Source: an uncultured Candidatus Altimarinota bacterium (GTDB lineage Bacteria > Patescibacteriota > Gracilibacteria > BD1-5 > UBA6164). From it: 21,929 nt of DNA. Location of the stretch: positions 1 to 21,929 of the forward strand of contig CALMDL010000354.1 in NCBI GenBank assembly GCA_937864995.1. Direction: 5' to 3'. The notes beneath the pieces are model-generated. The model worked only from the letters and a program-made list of their open reading frames with translations. It searched no databases and had not been told where the DNA came from. Both the position numbers and the translations under genes were made by a program. Below are positions 2,550 through 21,929 of the stretch, in pieces (position 1 is the first letter of the stretch; each line of letters begins with the position of its first letter).

Positions 2550-3551
2550 ATGCCAACAGATAAAGAATATTTCGCAGATACAACATCAATATCAAATTCA
2601 CAACTTAGAAGCTTTGTATCTTACAATAAATGGGGTCAAAGATTATTAACTCCAGATGACTATATAGCTATGCATATAGATAAAGTAATAAAATTTGAAC
2701 CAACTGATGCAGTTATAATTTGAAAAATAGTGGATAAATTTTTTGATTGAACAGGAAAAAATGTATGGAACTTTTATATTCCAGTTGCAAGAAGAACTGG
2801 AAAAGAGATTCAAGAAGTTAAAGATAAATTAATTAAAGATAAAACAATCGAATATGATTTTGAAGAAACTGTAGAAAATTCAGAAATAATTTACTTATCT
2901 ACATTTAAAATACCTAAATGAGAAGAAGTTATTTGTGGTAAATGATTAACTACACAAGAGTCTATAGAAGATTTAATTAACAAATATGTTGATGAAAACT
3001 ATATGGAAATTACAATGAGTATGAAAGATGATGCTGATATGATGATAGCAAGAGGGTTGTCTTTTAGAAAATTTAAAAACTTTTTGAAAGATGAATGAAC
3101 TGAATCACAAGTTCAGTTAAAACAAAATGTAGATATAGTGAATAAAGAAACATGAGAAGTTAGAACAATTGCAATGAAAGGGAAACCAGATTTTGTAAAC
3201 AAAAGAACAAAATTAATTGTAGATTTAAAAACTTCTTGATCAAGAGATATGGTAATTGAAGACTTACAATTTAGATGAGAACCTAAATTAACTGCTGATT
3301 ATATCAGACAATTATCTATTTATAATAAATTGATGTGAGGTGATTATGATTGAGCTTTAGCTTTACTTACAGCTAATGGAGTTAAATGGATTTTTATACC
3401 AAATGAATTTTTGGTACAAGCTTGGGAAATTTTAGAAAAAGATATTCTAGAATTAGATGATTTTATAAAAGACCCAGACTCTATTGATGAGTCAATATTT
3501 AAACAATCAGATTATAATATAAGTTTAGATGCTTTAGGATTAGATAACTAA
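2550..3551 (+). CDS. RecB/Cas4-like PD-(D/E)XK nuclease, 333 aa
   Basis: The catalytic pattern is clear: K-G-K-P-D214 followed by I-V-D225-L-K227-T-S, then a Q254-L-S-I-Y258 motif. These correspond to the D...(D/E)xK core and the Q-x-x-x-Y motif of RecB/Cas4-type and phage lambda-exonuclease-like superfamily members. The expected activity is metal-dependent cleavage of DNA ends in recombination or replication-fork processing. The N-terminus (SNSQLRSFVSYNKWGQRLL, residues 15-33) matches the S-x-S-x-L start typical of these proteins, so the ATG at 2550 is well placed. I see no four-Cys Fe-S cluster of the Cas4/AddB type. Many Gly codons are UGA. Its neighbours (SSB-like, helicase, primase) fit a replication-recombination role. 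Confidence 0.8.
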
Positions 3552-3558
3552 AAATATT

Positions 3559-3783
3559 ATGAACACAAAAGAACTACAAGCTCAAAAAAAGATAAAAGAC
3601 TTAGAGCAAACTATTTATTATTTAGTTAAATTGAATGTACTTTATAGTCAATTAGATTACCATAATAATGAGATTATTAAATCTTTAGAATCTATAAATA
3701 CAAACAATAGAAAAATTATTATTCTATTAATTATAGCATTATGAGTAGTAATTTGAACTGCAAATTATTTATCTAACTTTTAA
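3559..3783 (+). CDS. Small tail-anchored membrane protein, 74 aa
   Basis: Frame from ATG at 3559 to TAA at 3781-3783. The N-terminal 50 residues are a charged, coiled-coil-like helix (KELQAQKKIKDLEQTIYYL near 4-22). The C-terminus is one hydrophobic segment, IIILLIIALGVVIGTANYL (about 53-71), containing two UGA-encoded Gly; without UGA decoding the segment would be cut short at residue 61. The layout suggests a membrane-anchored coiled-coil protein facing the cytoplasm. The function is unknown. Seven bases separate it from the nuclease. Confidence 0.65.
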
Positions 3784-3786
3784 CAA

Positions 3787-4044
3787 ATGAATACAAATAT
3801 AGATAACTACATGGATAGTTTAGAAGAATGAACTATTATAGAATTTGAATGAGAAACTTTTGTTTTCCTTAAACTTAGTTGAGATTATATTCTTTGTGAA
3901 GATATGAGGTATTTAATCTATAATGATTTTATAGATGACCTAGAATTTTGAGACAATACTAAATTCAAAGAATGGGTAGAAACACAAGAGATAGATAAAC
4001 AAACTAATTCCTGAATGGATTTAAATAGAGAATTAACCAGTTAA
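3787..4044 (+). CDS. Small acidic hypothetical protein, 85 aa
   Basis: Frame from ATG at 3787 (three bases after the preceding stop) to TAA at 4042-4044, with six UGA-encoded Gly. The protein is strongly acidic, with a beta-like N-terminal half (GTIIEFEGETFVFLKLSGDY, about 15-34) and an acidic second half. Small acidic phage proteins can be DNA mimics or host-enzyme inhibitors, but that is only a possibility. No family is recognised. Confidence 0.6.
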
Positions 4045-6254: not shown

Positions 6255-6512
6255 ATGTCAGAAGAAAACCAACTAAAAGTACTTAAAAATTATCAAGATA
6301 CATATATTGATTTGAAAAAGTTAATAGATGAAGAGATGAGAATTTTAAGTAATTCTATAGATTGATTAACTATAGATTTAGAAATAGCTATAAAAATTAA
6401 CCATTCAGTAGAAGAAAAATATATTAGAAATAATCTAGAACCTAAACTTGAGGCATATAATTTTTATCAAAAATTAAAAACAAGACTAGAATTATGACAG
6501 AAGAATACATAG
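6255..6512 (+). CDS. Small helical hypothetical protein, 85 aa
   Basis: Frame from ATG at 6255, four bases after the helicase stop, to TAG at 6510-6512. The sequence is almost entirely charged helix (YQDTYIDLKKLIDEEMRIL around 14-32; KLEAYNFYQKLKTRLEL near the end), with two UGA-encoded Gly. Its last 19 bases overlap the start of the primase-like gene in another frame, indicating coupling. It could be a helicase or primase accessory protein by position only. Confidence 0.6.
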
Positions 6513-7102
6513 CAGATATATGTGAAGAAATAAAAACAAAAGAACTTCATATAGAATCTGAAAAATATTATAAAACACCTTGAAGTATTGAACATTCTAT
6601 TTTATCTATGATGACTGATTCTGATATAGCTATTATTATAGCTGATAAAAGATCAGAATGGGGTATTCTAGAAAAAGAGAAAAAAGAAGCAATGAAATGA
6701 TTAAGGTGAGAGAATAGACAAATAGTAGAATTATTATTTTTAGATGAGCAAGAATTAATAAATAAGCTTATTAAAAAATTTCAATATATTCTAAAATCAA
6801 GGTCTTGAGAAGATACTTGAAAATTTAATTCTGAAGATTTACAAAGAGCAAAAGAGACAATATCCATTATTGATTTAATAGAAGTAATAACTTGAATAAA
6901 AGCAAGTTGATATAAATTAATGAAATGTCCATTCCCTGCACATAAGGATAAAACACCAAGTATGAAAATATATAAGAATACTAATAGTTTTTTCTGTCAG
7001 TGATGTAGGAAATGATGAAGTTGTATAGACTTTATAATGAATATGAATCAATGTTCTTTACCTGAAGCGATAAACCAATTTATGCAATTTTATAAGAAAT
7101 AA
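6494..7102 (+). CDS. CHC2 zinc-finger primase-like protein, 202 aa
   Basis: The C-terminal 70 residues hold a textbook DnaG-type CHC2 zinc finger: I-D-L-I-E upstream, C145-P-F-P-A-H150, K-T-P-S-M, then F-F-C168-Q-G-C171-R-K-G-G-S and I-D-F-I-M. Zinc ligands are C145, H150, C168 and C171. The Gly residues of C-Q-G-C and G-G are UGA-encoded, independent evidence for the UGA=Gly code. In DnaG and phage T7 gp4 this finger recognises the priming trinucleotide. No TOPRIM or RNA-polymerase domain is visible; the 140-residue N-terminus is helical, so the catalytic part may be another protein, for example the 805-residue product at 12183. The start at 6494 overlaps the preceding gene by 19 bases. TAA at 7100-7102. 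Confidence 0.85.
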
Positions 7103-7397: not shown

Positions 7398-7790
7398 ATG
7401 ATTACAAAAGTAAAAAGCAATGTACTTGATATAAGTATAATAGTGGTTTTATTATTTATACTAATATTAATATGACTAATTTCTTCTAATAATACAAAAA
7501 TAAAAAACCAAGAGATAACTCAATTAAAAGAGGAGGTAAAAAAACAATCTGATATAGAGATATTATGACAATCAGCATATGAAGCAAATATTAATGCTAT
7601 ATCTGAATTAGAAGAAATTGAGATATTAAAAGCTGATTTAAAATTAAAGGAAGAAAACTATGAAAAAAATTTACTTACTAAAAAATGTATTGAAAGTCAA
7701 ATATTAAGAATGACTGATAATTTAGAATATAGTTTAGATTATTGTAAAGATAAAAATAATATTGAACAATTTAGAACAAAAAAATACTAG
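7398..7790 (+). CDS. Membrane-anchored coiled-coil protein, 130 aa (0-frame product)
   Basis: From ATG at 7398 to TAG at 7788-7790. One N-terminal hydrophobic segment, DISIIVVLLFILILIGLIS (11-29), acts as a signal anchor with few positive charges before it (K4, K6). It is followed by a long charged coiled coil from about residue 33 to 110, rich in Glu, Lys and Leu heptads. The last sense codons read AAA AAA TAC before TAG. They lie on an A7 slippery run (7778-7784) followed by a stem-loop, and a -1 shift there would continue into the lysozyme-like frame ending at 8200. The 0-frame form alone is a spanin- or holin-like membrane protein; the long form would be 267 residues, a membrane-tethered lysozyme. 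Confidence 0.7.
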
Positions 7791-7817
7791 AGGCTGTTAA
7801 GGTTCAGCCTCCTCTAG
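7778..7817 (+). promoter_or_regulatory. Candidate -1 ribosomal frameshift signal
   Basis: The heptamer A AAA AAA (7778-7784) lies in the required phase (0-frame codons 7779-7781 and 7782-7784). Downstream is a strong stem-loop: CTAGA plus GGCTG (7787-7796) pair with CAGCC plus TCTAG (7805-7809 and 7813-7817), with a 3-nt bulge (TCC) and an 8-nt loop. The 0-frame stop TAG (7788-7790) is inside the stem. After slippage the next codon is ATA at 7784, and the new frame is open for 138 codons to the TAA at 8198-8200. There is no T run after the stem, so it does not look like a terminator. Transcriptional slippage on A7 is an alternative way to get the same product. Confidence 0.6.
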
Positions 7818-8200
7818 GTGAAATAGAACCACTGTCCCAATGAAAAAGAGTATTGCATAAATGATGGGCAGAAAATGATGAAAGGCAAAAATGGCTTCAA
7901 TATCTATTAGATAATTGAGGTGAGGATGCAATGAGAACTTTTCTAGCTGAAAATTGAACAATGTGAATCACTAGGAAGAGTGGATTAGTTTGAGCTAATT
8001 GATACAGAGATTATGGAATATGCCAAATAAATGCTGGTTATCACCCAGAAATCTTGTGAAATTGAAAAGATTATTTTGTAGATTGGTTTTATGATCCATA
8101 TAAACAGATGGACTATTGTATAAAAAAGTTTAAATGATGAACTAAATTTTATGCATATAAACATAGATTTGCAAGAACAAGAGATATAATAGTATATTAA
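7784..8200 (+). CDS. Lysozyme-like domain, 138 aa, expressed by -1 frameshift (or internal start)
   Basis: The frame is open from 7775, upstream of the slippery site, to TAA at 8198-8200 and has no ATG until 7931. The sequence looks like a lysozyme/soluble lytic transglycosylase fold: R-T-F-L-A-E-N-G (probable catalytic Glu at 7949-7951), then G-Y-R-D-Y-G-I-C-Q-I-N-A-G-Y-H-P (the GLxQIN-like core), then D-W-F-Y-D-P-Y and K-K-F-K-G-G-T-K-F-Y-A-Y near the end. This architecture resembles small peptidoglycan hydrolases I know from CPR bacteria and their phages. ATG at 7931 would give an 89-residue form beginning just before the catalytic Glu and lacking the conserved WAENDERQKWLQYLL helix, so the frameshift product is favoured. 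Role: cell-wall degradation for lysis or entry. Confidence 0.6.
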
Positions 8201-8209
8201 TTTTTAAAT

Positions 8210-8752
8210 ATGAATAAAATGAGTGATTTTAATAATTATTTAGCTTATTTAGATGCAACAAAAAATAGAGAAATAGGTAATTGTTGTAGTAATGAAGGTA
8301 TGAGTATAGAAGAAGCTAGATTAAAAATAATGGAACATTCAGCTCAAGAGTGATTAAGAATAATTGAGCAGAATAAATATATCAATAGAGAAGTTCATTT
8401 GTTAAGTGATGAACTCAGAAAAAAGGACTATGATTTAGAAGAAAAAACAGAAATTCTTAATAAATATATTGAAACTTTTGGTAAATATGAAATAGTAGAA
8501 GAGAGATATGCTACTTCTTTTAGGAAAGAAAAAACAATAAAAATGCCAGAAACTAATTCTTACAAATTTTATAAAAAAGTTTTCAATGATGATACTTACT
8601 GAAATTTTTCAATCCCAGCTTGAAAGATAATTAATTTATCTATTGAAGTTCTAGATTGAAGTTATCAAATTTTATCTAGAAAAGTTAAAGATAAAAAAGT
8701 AAAAGAAGAAAAAATATCTACTAAAACTACTAAAAAATGAAAGATAAAATAA
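8210..8752 (+). CDS. Hypothetical coiled-coil protein with basic tail, 180 aa
   Basis: Frame from ATG at 8210 (ATG again at 8219) to TAA at 8750-8752. Residues 30-90 are charged helix with coiled-coil character (SIEEARLKIMEH, ELRKKDYDLEEKTEIL). The C-terminal half has beta-like segments (YGNFSIPAGKIINLSIEVLD) and a Lys-rich tail (KVKDKKVKEEKISTKTTKKG). The basic tail could bind nucleic acid or the envelope. Its last 16 bases overlap the exonuclease gene. No family is recognised. Confidence 0.6.
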
Positions 8753-9486
8753 TATTTTTGGATACAGAAACTACAGATACTAGTCCAGAACCTTGAATGA
8801 TACAATTATGATACATTGTGTGTGACTTACATTTTAATGAAATAAAAAGAGAAAATCTATTTTTTCATTTAGAAGATAAGGAAATAGATATTTGAGCTAT
8901 GGCTATTCATCACATAACTCCAAAAATTCTAACTGAAAAATTAAAACAAGATTCAAGAGATAATAAAGAAAAGAAAAATCTAGCAATAGAAGATTTTAAA
9001 AATGCTTATCTAGTTGCCCATAATTCTCCTTTTGATAAAAATGTTTTGACTTGTAATTGAGTTATTACAGAAGATGATCAATGGATAGATTCATATAATA
9101 TAGCATATTCTATATTCACAGATGATGATATGAAACACTCTTTACAATATTTAAGATATTATTTTAAATGTGAATTTGAAGAAATTATTGATGCTCATGA
9201 TGCAATATCAGATGTTATAGTATTAAAGGAAGTTTTTAGAAAAATATATGAAAAATATATGGAAACTTGAACTTGATGAAATCCTTTTGAGGAATTAGTT
9301 GAACAGACTTCATTTTGAATAATTTTAAGAAAATGGATGTTTGGTAAATATAATTGAAGAAGTATTGAAGAAACTTTTAAGATAGATAGATGATATTTTG
9401 AGTGGATGTATGGACAAAAAAAGAAGGACTGAAATACTGATGATGCAGTTTTTAATACATTAAAACATTACTTATGATTGAAGTAA
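8737..9486 (+). CDS. DEDDh 3'-5' exonuclease (DnaQ-like) with C-terminal DUF3820-like domain, 249 aa
   Basis: Exo I: I-F-L-D9-T-E11-T. Exo II: A-H-N-S-P-F-D100. Exo III: A-H154-D-A-I-S-D159. All four acidic residues and the catalytic His are present, giving an RNase T/DnaQ-type proofreading or degradative exonuclease acting on ssDNA or RNA with two metals. Between I and II sits A-I-H-H-I-T-P, a common motif in this family. The C-terminal 50 residues, W-M-F-G-K-Y-N-G-R (200-208) to Y-F-E-W-M-Y-G, match the pattern of the DUF3820-type module (F-G-K-Y-K-G ... Y-L-x-W) that often accompanies these exonucleases. The start at 8737 overlaps the previous gene by 16 bases. It likely helps replication, repair or host-DNA turnover. 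Confidence 0.8.
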
Positions 9487-16429: not shown

Positions 16430-16984
16430 ATGACTAAATGAACTTCAATAGCTTGAAGAAAAAGAAATGATTGAATTGATTTTTATCAAACACCTAGTTG
16501 GTGTGTAGAAAAACTTTTAGAAAAAGAAGTTTTTAGTGATAATATATTAGAACCATGTAGTTGAGCAGGTGCAATATCTAAAGTATTAGAAAAACATTGA
16601 TATAATGTTTTCAGTCAAGATATAAGAACTGATAAATGAGTATATTGAAATAAATGACAAGATTTTTTATTATATAATAAACCAAAAGTTTGAGACATAA
16701 TAACTAATCCACCTTATTTTATAGCTAAAGATTTTATAAATAAAGCATTAGAAAATACTGATTGAAAAGTTGCTATGTTGCTTAAATTATCTTTTTTAGA
16801 AAGTGCTGATAGATATGAATTTTTTAAAAATACTCCTCTAAAAAAAGTTTATGTATTTTGTAAAAGAGTAAATATGTATCCTGAATGACAACCTCAACCA
16901 AAAAATAGCTGAACTATTGCATATGCTTGGTATATTTGGGAAAAATGATATACATGAAAGCCAACAATAGATTGGATATTATAA
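16430..16984 (+). CDS. Third DNA adenine methyltransferase, 184 aa
   Basis: Motif I: L-E41-P-C-S-G45-A-G-A (SAM loop). Motif IV: N93-P-P-Y96 (catalytic). Motif order I-IV and the small size match gamma-like phage N6-adenine MTases (Dam or 'DNA N-6-adenine-methyltransferase' type). Y-Q-T-P-S-W (19-24) before motif I is the conserved W/Y-x-T-P phrase of such enzymes. I-T-N-P-P-Y-F-I-A-K-D-F is canonical. UGA encodes the first Gly of S-G-A-G. It is unrelated in motif order to the beta-type MTase at 9659. The gene is in the same operon as the zinc ribbon, with no nuclease partner visible. TAA at 16982-16984. Confidence 0.75.
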
Positions 16985-17007
16985 TTTATTTTTTAATAAT
17001 AAATATT

Positions 17008-17274
17008 ATGCAAATGATAAAATTTAGTGCTAAATGGTGTAACCCTTGTCAGGCTTATTTACCTATTTTTGATGCAGTTAAAAATAATAATCAAAATATA
17101 GAAATGAGAAGTGTTGATGTTGATGTAGAAATGGATTTTGCTTGAAAGAATAAAATAATGTCTATTCCTGCAACAATCATTTTAGATGATGAATGAAAAG
17201 AAATCTTTAGACAAATTTGAATAATTCAACAAAAAGATTTACAAGAAATTATTGATAAATTTTTTAAAATTTAA
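17008..17274 (+). CDS. Thioredoxin-like protein, 88 aa
   Basis: M-I-K-F-S-A-K-W10-C11-N-P-C14 is a thioredoxin active-site motif (W-C-x-P-C) at the end of the first beta strand, and S-I-P54-A-T holds the cis-proline. Length (88 aa) is that of a minimal thioredoxin fold. The expected role is dithiol reduction, for example supplying ribonucleotide reductase or a phage enzyme. Start at 17008 rather than the in-frame ATG at 16927, because the latter is inside the methyltransferase gene and the added residues are hydrophobic but outside the fold. TAA at 17272-17274. Confidence 0.75.
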
Positions 17275-18213: not shown

Positions 18214-18618
18214 TTGTAATATATAAATTCCATCAACTAATCAATTTTTTCTTCTTTTTTCTTTATAATGTCATTTTAATTTAAGTTGCATATCTATTCA
18301 TTTTAATCTTAAATGATAATCAGGAACAGTTATACTTCATCATTCTCAATCTGAAATTTCTTTAGTTCAATTTAGAACAACATCATTTAAAGCTTCTGCA
18401 ATATCTTCATCATCTAATAAATGGTTTGTAATATCTTTTTCTACCTCCACTAATTCTAAAACTGGTGGAGGTGTTATTGTTTCTATTTTAGTACTTTGTC
18501 AAGAAGTGTTTGTAATTGAATTTTCTCAAGTTGTGGTTGAGTTTGTTGTTTTGCTTCAATGTCAATTAAATTGATCAGTTTTCACTTCTTCTTCTCAGAA
18601 TATGTTGGCAGTATTCAT
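18211..18618 (-). CDS. Possible small terminase subunit-like protein, 135 aa
   Basis: Read on the - strand from ATG at 18618-18616 to TAA at 18213-18211. N-terminus M-N-T-A-N-I-F-G-E-E-E-V, then a low-complexity Thr/Ser/Gly/Asn linker (SKTTNSTTTGENSITNTSG), a Pro-rich turn (TITPPPVLELVEVEKD), and a helical C-terminal half: LLDDEDIAEALNDVVLNG, then V-P-D-Y-H-L-R-L-K-G-I-D-M-Q-L-K-L-K-G-H-Y. The D-x-x-x-R-L-K-x-I-D-x-x-L-K-L-K-G phrase resembles the end of phage small terminase subunits and related DNA-packaging factors. The 5' 136 bases overlap the end of the large - strand gene in another frame. Family assignment is tentative; the position next to a virion-protein gene supports it. Confidence 0.5.
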
Positions 18619-21600
18619 ATATTAGTTCATTTAGTAGTAATTTTTCAAGAAAGTTTTGTTTCTTCTTTTGGAATATTACTCACTTCTTGTTTTTTTTCAA
18701 GATTTTCATCAATAAAAGTAGCTCATCTTAATTCTGCATTTCTTCTATATAAATCATATAACTCTGGAAAATCTTTTGTTGCCTCAAGTATTTTTGAAAT
18801 GTTATCTTGATTTATTGCAGTTGTAATTTTTTGACTAAGTGAATCATATATTTGTGCTTTTAATTCTGGAGAATTATTTAGTAATCAAATTACTTCATTT
18901 AAAGCTTTTAATTTATCATATTCAGTAGTAATTATATCACTTTTTGAAACCATTTGTTCAGCTAAATCACTTAATTTTTCTCATATAACTGTAGATAATA
19001 AAGCTCATTCCATATCTCTATTAATTACATTATCAACAAATGCTTTTTGTAATTCTGCAACTTCTGGATTTATATTTCCAGTAGAAATACTATTATATAA
19101 TTCAGAATAAAATTGGTTATATAATTTTGGATTTACTTCTCTTAATGTATTAAGAGTGGTATTCATATCTTCAAAATCTAAAGGAACATTTTTCACATAA
19201 TTTATTCATTTTACAACAGAAGATAGTTTATTTACAGTTCATAGATTAGATGTAATATTTTTAATATATTTTTCTTTAAAATTCTTTTTAAAAAGTTCTC
19301 ATTTTTCTCAATAATCTTTTCATAAAGCATTATCTAAGAAAGCATCAAAATCCATTTTTTCTGATTGTTTTTCTTTAATTCTTCTATTAATATTATCCAC
19401 TTGTGTTCTCAATGCTTTTAATTTAGCATTATTAACTTTTGAAGATACATCAAATGCATTTGACAAGCTATCAAAAACTTGAATAGTTTGCATAAAATTT
19501 CATAATTTTTCTCAAACTGAAGCTGGTAATTTAGCTTTTTCTTCTGCTAATTTGTTATATAAATTACTATATGCTGCAGAAGTTGGATTTATTCACATAA
19601 AAGTTCAAAGAGGGCTTGTAGATTTTATATCAGTATATGTATATCATCAATCTTTACTTTCATTTCTTGTATAATCTCATGCTATACTAGATAGAGCTGT
19701 TTTCCCTTTCTTTAGTCAAGTAAATATATTAAAAAACATTTTATTAAACTCTTCAATTTTTGCTTTTTCTCATTCAGCATTAGAAATTCAAACAACTCAT
19801 TGGATAAGTGCATCTATATTTCAAGAAACCATATCAAGACCAGAAAATCATGCTGGAGAAGTAACCAAATTAGCTAAGTAGTTTTTTAAATCTTTTGCAA
19901 AAATATATTCAGTAAATTTTGCTTTTTCCTCTTCATCTTCAAAGAACATTTCAGCCATAATTTTAGCAACTGCTAGCATTCATATAGTTCTTGTAGTTAA
20001 TGAAGTCATATTTGCTTTTAGTCAACTTACATCTCATCAAAGAGTTTTACTAAATTCTCTATCTGCTATATTATCTTTTTTTGTTTTTCATTCTGATTTT
20101 AATAGAATATCTATAGAATCAGTCATATCATGAAATATGCTTGATAAATTTTGTCTATTAAATCATTTTACCATATTAAATAATGGTATATCAAAAACTG
20201 AACTTGTAGCTGAAGATAATCTTGTATTGTCTTCTATTTTTGTAACTTGGTCTGATAATTCTCAAAAAATATCTCTTCTTTCAGGCTCACTTAGTGAATT
20301 AATTGTTCTTTTAAATGCTCAAACTAGAGTTTCTCATTCTTTTATCCCTCATCATTGTTTTTGAACTACATTGTTCATAAATCAAGAAGCAATGATAGTC
20401 TGAATTTGAGGTATTAATGTTGCTGTAAAGTATCTTAATCATTTATTAGGAATATCTTTTGTTTGAGAATATACTTTTCTAGATAAAGGAACATTTCATT
20501 TAAACAAATCCTTATCTAAGTTAAAGTCTTTATGTGCTATTAATCATTGATTAAATAAATAATCTCTTGTATCCCATAATGTATTATTTACAAAATTAGA
20601 TATTTTTTTAAATCATTTATCTTTTCATGATATTCAAGAATAAGTAGCTTTATCAGTAGCTAAATTATATAATGTCTTTCATAATCATTGTAAAGCACCA
20701 AAAGTTAAATTTTGCACCATCATAGCAGTATTTCATACATACTTTGTAAGTGCTGTTGCTTTTGAAATTTTTCTTACTCATTCATTTATTTTTGAATAAT
20801 CTCACATTCATAATAATTTTTTTGTAAGATAATTATTATCTGAAGTTAAATTCTGATCTATAAAACTTTTTACATTATCATCTTTTTTTCATAATTCTTC
20901 AAATAAAGATAATATTTCTTTTTGTTCTTTAAGTCTTGATAATTCAGTAGCATAGCTATTTATAACATCAAGTGGATTATAAGAATGTAAGAACCATACA
21001 TCTCTACTCTTTTTTAAAATTCAAGCCATTTGTTCTGGGGTAGGCATACTTCAGTTTTTAATAGCTTGTATATTATCTGCTTCATATTTTTGTAAAAAAG
21101 CATTAATATCTCATCATTGAGTTGCTTCAAAATATTCTCTTAGTTTATCTTGAGATACATATCAATGGTAGTAATTTTCTTTCAAATAAGGTATTAATTC
21201 TGGGTGTTGTTCTCATATTTCTTGAAATCATTTTTGAACTATAGAATCTTCTCAAAATTGTCAGTAATTATCAAATATTTGTTTTACATATGGTTGAGTT
21301 TCTTTAGGTAATTCAGAAATTACTTGATTTATAATTTCCTGTGTTTTAGCAGGATTTATCTCTTGATTAGTTTCTTTTTCAAAATTCTTAATTCTATTCA
21401 TTATTTCAAATCAAGTAAAATCAAAAAGAACTCTGTTTTTAGTTGAATTTATTCATTGTTCTCAACTTGTTCTTGAAAATAATTGATTAGGAGCTGTACT
21501 TGTTCAAATTTCTCTAATTTTATCTTTAATCTTTTCTCAAGTTTTATACTTGTCTATATTTTTTACAACAAAATCATATCATGCATTTATTGCTTTTGTG

Positions 21601-21929
21601 TTTTGGTCTTCTAATTTTCTTAGATTATCAAATCATAATGCATTCATTGTTTTATTCCTAAAATTTTTAGCTTCTCAAATGATTCAATCTACTAAAAATG
21701 AAGCTGTTTTTCTTCTTCAATTTTTATCTGTTACAACTATATTATCTAAAAATCACCTAACATTATCTATAAGAACCTTTTCAACTCATCATAATTTAAC
21801 TTTTTCAGTTAGTTTTCTAACTTTATTGAGACTAACTTTTAATCATTCTGTTAAGGGAAATTTTGACTTTTCAGCCTCTATATTATCTCATTTTAAAAAA
21901 TCTGGTAAATTTTTTGTTGTTTTTATTTG
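18483..21929 (-). CDS. Giant phage protein, C-terminal 1148 aa (5' end outside window)
   Basis: A single uninterrupted - strand frame from the right window edge to TAG at 18485-18483, with UGA read as Gly throughout. It is Lys/Glu/Asn-rich and mostly alpha-helical, with long coiled-coil-like stretches. A few hydrophobic patches are present (about 20,740-20,660: MMVQNLTFGALQGLGK; about 20,010-19,950: TRTIGMLAVAKIMAEMFF) and no enzyme motif that I recognise. Such very long helical proteins with small glycine-rich hydrophobic islands resemble phage internal virion/ejection proteins and the large polyvalent proteins described in phages, but that is inference. The start codon, and possibly an N-terminal enzymatic domain, lie beyond 21929. 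Its last 136 bp also encode the start of the 135-aa gene in a different frame. Confidence 0.75.

Follow-up and report, generated by a model that had tools for sequence, protein, structure and literature searches.

Two proteins are very likely produced from one gene of a phage-like contig by programmed -1 ribosomal frameshifting, namely a membrane tether and a fusion of this tether with a lysozyme-like enzyme domain. The gene lies in a stretch of 21,929 nucleotides (hereafter, the window), which makes up the whole contig C354 (21.9 kb) and comes from a 1.21-Mb metagenome bin with a completeness of 85%. The same layout, a membrane coil in frame 0 and a lysozyme-like domain in frame -1, was found in 19 contigs, i.e., the window and 18 others, and for this family programmed -1 frameshifting can be read from the sequences with even greater confidence than for the window alone. 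The core of a preliminary description of the locus, a -1 frameshift fusing a membrane coiled coil to a lysozyme domain, has therefore proven essentially right.

We infer that slippage itself occurs, and propose the following mechanism. Most ribosomes would complete the 0-frame ORF and release a short protein with one membrane helix, presumably oriented N-in/C-out, and an extracytoplasmic coil. At A_AAA_AAA, with a hairpin 5 nt farther downstream as the stimulus, a fraction would slip one base back, enter the -1 frame and synthesize a 267-aa protein carrying the same tether followed by the lysozyme-like domain. As the enzyme domain lacks a hydrophobic segment of its own, the frameshift would also provide its export and anchoring. 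With the short and the long form made in a fixed ratio, the number of enzyme-bearing subunits would be set in a coiled-coil assembly, in which we infer both forms to be mixed, and this assembly would open the cell wall as infection ends. The conserved signal would, in this way, set the ratio of anchor to wall-cutting enzyme in phages of bacteria with a recoded genetic code.

Slip site and hairpin in the window

Translation with table 11 yielded 17 ORFs of at least 60 aa in the window, and reading TGA as an amino acid (table 25, the code of Gracilibacteria and Absconditabacteria) gave long, closely spaced ORFs and dense coding. Since the ORFs are intact only in the latter case, TGA appears to be read as sense. 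The neighbors of the frameshift gene are phage-like and include a primase DnaG zinc ribbon (6494-7102; Pfam, 1.6e-16), an exonuclease (8737-9486; phrog_192, 2e-35), and a helicase (phrog_16, E 4e-42). An open-ended ORF of at least 1148 aa at 18483-21929 (minus strand) is oriented against most of the other long ORFs; neither Pfam nor PHROG gave a match to it below E 0.01, and it does not clearly resemble the 1647-aa ORF of locus L014. The protein of 7398-7790 is present in the protein database from a contig of 22,786 bases, compared with 21,929 here, and a slightly longer record may exist.

All elements of the frameshift gene lie on the plus strand. The 0-frame ORF (7398-7790, 130 aa), encoding the tether or short form, ends with ACA AAA AAA TAC TAG, its stop codon TAG being located at 7788-7790, just past the slippery heptamer A_AAA_AAA at 7778-7784. 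Both position and phase of this heptamer were as previously described. A spacer of 5 nt (7785-7789), the same heptamer-stem distance as in 16 of the 17 GGGTTT-type relatives, is followed by a stem-loop of GAGGCTG, an 8-nt loop, and CAGCCTC (7790-7811), the presumed frameshift stimulator. A stem-loop had been announced within two bases of the heptamer; the stem was recovered with 7 bp (7790-7796/7805-7811), but at a spacing of 5 nt, and the longer pairing of 7787-7817 was absent from both the minimum-energy and the centroid structure when RNA structure prediction was run. Likewise, the 0-frame stop, said to be inside the stem, touches the predicted stem with the last base of TAG only.

Judged by its sequence, the window site alone is only moderately unusual, and it is the relatives that take it beyond chance. 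The window is AT-rich, with 28 start positions of A7 on its plus strand; a 7-bp stem at a distance of 4-9 nt can be formed from 278 of 21,729 positions (1.3%), and the fold z-score was -1.5, with 14 of 200 shuffles as good. Furthermore, A_AAA_AAA is less shift-prone than A_AAA_AAG in E. coli according to PMC5009743, which speaks against a programmed frameshift in the window.

Recurrence of the layout and conservation of its signal

The 19 instances comprise the window, L014, L029, and 16 IMG/VR contigs; L037 and L038 are near-identical to each other. Among 353 genomes of the class, a scan with A1 matched 10 and one with A4, at E 0.01, matched 11. The 0/-1 layout was found in contig C140 of G080 (L003/L014), which carries Sak4 and SSB genes and has no start codon before the enzyme core, and in contig C8 of G017 (L012/L029), carrying terminase and tape-measure genes and the site G_GGT_TTT. 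The other genome matches examined (L004-L011) are single-frame proteins, and a match in G033 (L027) was weak (E 0.006). Scanning viral contigs with A5 yielded 27 loci, 15 with and 12 without the layout; A6 also returned 27 loci, including four new contigs, with the layout present in L077 and absent from L085-L087. From a phylum sample of 379 genomes, two matched, the window's own and one with the single-frame L013. None of the 51 and 65 stretches that fit the pattern in the A2 scans of viral and genome contigs, respectively, was confirmed; three explicit DNA pattern searches gave no stretch and another gave two (L032 and L033), and a phage collection searched by protein gave no match. A scan of viral contigs with a single protein was of no use.

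A count of homologues gave 140 (120 of them listed), which do not enter these layout numbers. Six of the first 11 metagenome homologues begin at an internal Met corresponding to ATG 7931, so that the first helix is incomplete; this would be expected in the absence of an upstream start codon, and frameshifting would explain why gene callers truncate these enzymes. Back-translation, a test of what a protein sequence permits, made from the protein alone, revealed for the upstream residues of P0002, read one base over, that they can encode a window-like tail (score 56), a score reached by 0 of 300 shuffles; against the L003 tail, P0002 likewise gave 0 of 300. P0009 resembled the L003 tail only (0/300, versus 32/300 for the window tail), and P0001 did so weakly (3/300, versus 37/300). 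For P0004, this test gave no support, 160 and 178 of 300 shuffles being as high.

Conservation in homologues of A7, stem, and frame relation had been proposed as a check of the window site. The frame relation recurs in all 18 relatives, a stem at 5-6 nt in 17 of them, and a slippery site in each, but in letters other than A7. An in-phase heptamer is present at 18 of the 19 loci, L014 having the tetramer A_AAG, and 17 of the 19 carry in-phase GGGTTTA (14) or GGGTTTT (3). The background rate of in-phase GGGTTTA/T was 2 in 46,892 codon positions, counted for all loci except L029 (18 of 19) in open frames of at least 150 codons, all six frames included. The base preceding GGT is always G, within varying codons (ATG, GAG, TTG, GCG, AAG, and CAG), and G makes up 12.3% of third positions overall.

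Of the 19 loci, L058 alone lacks a stem after the slip site; in the other 18, the spacing is 5 nt (17 loci) or 6 nt (L014). The stem is very small in 16 of the 17 GGGTTT-type loci, where it begins 5 nt past the heptamer and consists of 4 bp closed by a loop of 6 nt, for the most part AGNNAA, and in six of 17 the stem can be extended by one pair toward the heptamer, the spacing then being 4 nt. The stem covaries, pairing being maintained in the variants GAGC/GCTC, GAGG/CCTC, GAAC/GTTC, GCAG/CTGC, GGGG/CCCC, and GTAG/CTAC. In the hairpin alignment, 95.3% of the cells are paired and 20 cells are changed on both sides, such changes affecting three of the four stem pairs. The covariation score was 0.779 versus 0.222 for shuffled alignments, and 0 of 500 shuffles reached it (16 distinct rows); relatedness can inflate this comparison, but the slid controls, which share the same relatedness, scored 0.02-0.12. 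In the hexaloop (L034:4975-4980; A9 columns 17-22), four of six positions are (nearly) invariant, suggesting a defined loop structure or a contact. The 4-bp hairpins are weak by folding, with z-scores of -0.92 (L034), -2.64 (L040), and -0.27 (L047) for the three that were folded, and the minimum-energy fold of L047 is a structure different from the 4-bp hairpin.

The same plan, in other letters, is seen in the window (7 bp, 5 nt) and in L014 (8 bp, 6 nt). The L014 site reads GC A_AAG TTA TAA, followed by 6 nt and a perfect 8-bp stem (z = -4.92); such stems occur at 48 of 11,240 positions of C140 (0.4%). The 0-frame stop coincides with the first stem base, lies in the loop or falls past the stem, depending on the phage, so the stop is not the conserved element. 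In L058, no 4-bp hairpin was found and the fold z-score was +0.80. Its enzyme stop is a TGA overlapping the next ATG, and reading TGA as sense raises its open-frame coverage from 0.56 to 0.90, compared with 0.12 to 1.04 in L034. By these features, L058 is probably a standard-code phage; if so, the frameshift device is not tied to code 25.

The membrane coil and the lysozyme-like domain

The preliminary description of the short form as a signal-anchored coiled coil agrees with a single N-terminal hydrophobic segment at residues 10-28 (peak hydropathy 3.20), followed by 102 mostly hydrophilic residues predicted to form one long helix. AF2, based on only two alignment rows, modeled a helix from residue 4 to 106 with a pLDDT of 78 and a pTM of 0.38. 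At a threshold of 1.6 over 19 residues, exactly one hydrophobic segment was found in all 19 short forms and none in any of the 19 extensions. The short forms of the window and of L014 are homologous, with 33% over 115 residues (E 4e-10); a protein search with the window short form returned its own protein, P0012, as the sole match.

An open -1 frame spans 7775-8200. After slippage, the extension (7784-8200) comprises 138 codons and TAA, encoding a linker and the lysozyme-like domain; with 129 residues before the slip, the product reaches the 267 aa predicted beforehand. The window enzyme is 42% identical to that of L014 over 132 residues (E 2e-29). A Glu codon at 7949-7951 (residue 59 when the -1 frame is numbered from 7775) specifies a candidate catalytic acid, E59 being invariant in 17 of 17 aligned homologues and the matching Glu being present in 25 of 25 rows. 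A fold match to C-type lysozymes and SLT lytic transglycosylases was obtained with Foldseek (E 0.11, 13-18% identity, not significant alone), and a wider profile gave no improvement against solved structures (best E 0.07). The window enzyme domain had no Pfam match above the cut-off, and one of 25 family members matched Pfam SLT. A lysozyme fold of the extension is supported but not proven, with no single fold test being significant.

Several known systems share features with this arrangement. Rz-type i-spanins likewise have an N-terminal membrane helix and a coiled extracytoplasmic part, a feature present here (the segment in 19 of 19, the helix in the window model), but the short form described here is extended by an enzyme via frameshifting, and the host type differs. 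Signal-anchor-release endolysins have anchor and enzyme in one frame, whereas the loci described here encode them in two frames, separated by a long coil, and have no single continuous anchor-enzyme frame. The likeness is that P1 Lyz and R21 also combine a lysozyme with an N-terminal export or anchor segment (PMC3556154). The lambda tail assembly chaperones gpG/gpGT also use -1 frameshifting, but there the proteins and the job are different from a membrane tether and a lysozyme-like domain; in L029, a tape-measure-like gene lies about 8 kb from the frameshift gene, a further contrast to gpG/gpGT.

In the literature consulted, phage frameshifting is described mainly for tail and capsid proteins (PMC5009743), and lysins are mentioned only briefly, PRFect listing them among genes known to contain a frameshift (PMC10885494). 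The reference list of the latter includes the paper on the lysin of Lactococcus phage phi-vML3 (Shearman 1994), with two overlapping genes and two products of the lysin gene; in a second-hand description, these are a lysin, the larger of the two, and a smaller protein resembling a holin (PMC3111421). The lysis gene of the RNA phage MS2 also overlaps another gene, and frameshifting has been proposed for it (PMC10885494; titles in the PMC5009743 references); there, however, ribosomes terminate after the frameshift and initiate anew on the lysis gene, with no fusion product. In the open-access (PMC) literature searched, we found nothing describing a frameshifted tether-lysozyme arrangement, and as far as that literature showed, lysis in phages of TGA-recoded bacteria has hardly been studied.

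Function, start codons, and alternative explanations

The tether-enzyme pair is probably a lysis device, as suggested by the tethered lysozyme-like domain, the one membrane helix, and weak Rz-like matches. An Rz-like spanin was the best match in five of the 12 short forms scanned (L029, L034, L036, L042, and L047), with E values ranging from 1.7e-4 for L047 and 4.9e-4 for L029 up to 0.02; the window's own short form had no Rz-like spanin match up to E 1. These matches lose weight since the tape-measure protein of L029 also matches an Rz-like family (phrog_739, E 0.0018), coils matching by composition. A bolder reading, to which we give somewhat less than even chances, is that of a separate class of phage lysis machine in Gracilibacteria/Absconditabacteria-type hosts, in which an excess membrane coiled-coil scaffold with a frameshift-set minority bearing a lysozyme head would replace separate endolysin and spanin genes, in analogy to the co-assembly of Gag and Gag-Pol, the compact stimulator consisting of G_GGU_UUA, 5 nt, a 4-bp stem, and the AGNNAA hexaloop.

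The frameshift could also be real and its product serve purposes other than lysis, for example as a virion-associated or entry enzyme or a wall-remodeling hydrolase. Such a role would suit the position of the window gene among replication-type genes (primase zinc ribbon and exonuclease), the long single-frame, host-type enzyme relatives L005, L010, and L011, and the weakness of spanin matches that a tape-measure protein shares. We consider it unlikely, as a membrane tether with a coil and a lysozyme-like domain suits wall opening from the inside and an Rz-like match recurs among the short forms.

Considerably less probable is translation of the enzyme as a separate gene, without any frameshift, from its own start at TTG 7853 and coupled to upstream termination. 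According to the preliminary description, the enzyme frame has no start until 7931; the ATG is indeed located there, but TTG 7853-7855, the sole ATG/GTG/TTG of this frame ahead of the conserved core, lies just before the core. By a simple pattern, no ribosome-binding-like motif was found for it. A possible start between slip site and core exists at six of the 19 loci (the window, L035, L036, L041, L046, and L048), and ATG 4992 of L041 does have such a motif; moreover, the relatives L039, L043, L050, L051, L053, and L085 have own starts. Against this, no start lies between slip site and core at 13 of the 19 loci, and nine lack any ATG, GTG, or TTG in the enzyme frame before the core. A separate enzyme would also have no hydrophobic segment, none of the 19 extensions having one, versus seven of 19 own-frame relatives that pass the threshold when measured from their first ATG. 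In-phase GGGTTTA/T in 17 of 17, the fixed spacing, and the covarying hairpin would be left unexplained.

Slippage of RNA polymerase on A7, rather than of the ribosome, has a marginally smaller chance still of yielding the second product. It is a recognized alternative route, and both kinds of slippage are treated in PMC5009743. However, a stem at 5 nt is typical of ribosomal frameshifting, and the relatives' GGGTTTA, GGGTTTT, and AAAG form no long homopolymer runs. An assembly or sequencing error in the A7 run that split a single-frame gene was rejected as very unlikely: homopolymers are error-prone and single-frame relatives with a membrane segment exist (L007 and L013), but the same frame relation recurs at non-homopolymer sites (L014 and 17 loci with GGGTTT).

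Homologues with both parts in separate genes or in a single frame had been named in advance as evidence against the frameshift. Such relatives exist, but they are other loci with their own N-terminus and not junctions changed by one base. L053 has two distinct ORFs with an overlap of 8 nt, one for a membrane coil and one for a membrane-anchored enzyme. L085 and L087 each have an enzyme ORF with ATGs at its junction with an overlapping ORF that contains a hydrophobic stretch; neither GGGTTT nor an A6 with A or G after it is present in the last 150 nt. L013 has a hydrophobic stretch preceding its first ATG, and L086 has none; most of the other own-frame relatives below the threshold show, by eye, a shorter hydrophobic stretch at their start.

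A tree of 37 rows (19 frameshift and 18 own-frame forms; L055, a cut fragment, the remote L059 and L060, the near-duplicates L052, L054, and L057, and all P rows omitted) revealed both forms mixed, with at least five changes, two of which are required by branches with good support. The window clusters with L014 (95/90), apart from the GGGTTT group; both are long branches, and this may be a false join. The backbone is poorly supported, and the tree may be compatible with more than one gain or loss of the frameshift form.

Further observations concern individual loci. In L005, L010, and L011, the same lysozyme-like domain is located at the C-terminal end of a long protein encoded in a single frame; some regions of L010 and L011 resemble what we take to be S-layer homology repeats. 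An ORF of L087 (5140-6285) with its own start, behind an ORF with a hydrophobic stretch and a coil, carries the same lysozyme-like domain, apparently joined to a part that we assume to be amidase-like from its motif. The frameshift contig of L058 contains an ORF (8833-9468, minus strand) that, judging by a motif, presumably resembles an amidase and is possibly a second wall hydrolase, as well as an ORF (3232-3942) rich in NTG-containing pentapeptide-like repeats. Directly downstream of the L029 frameshift gene, a small ORF (16813-17256, minus strand) has a hydrophobic start and a charged, coil-like remainder and might be a partner.
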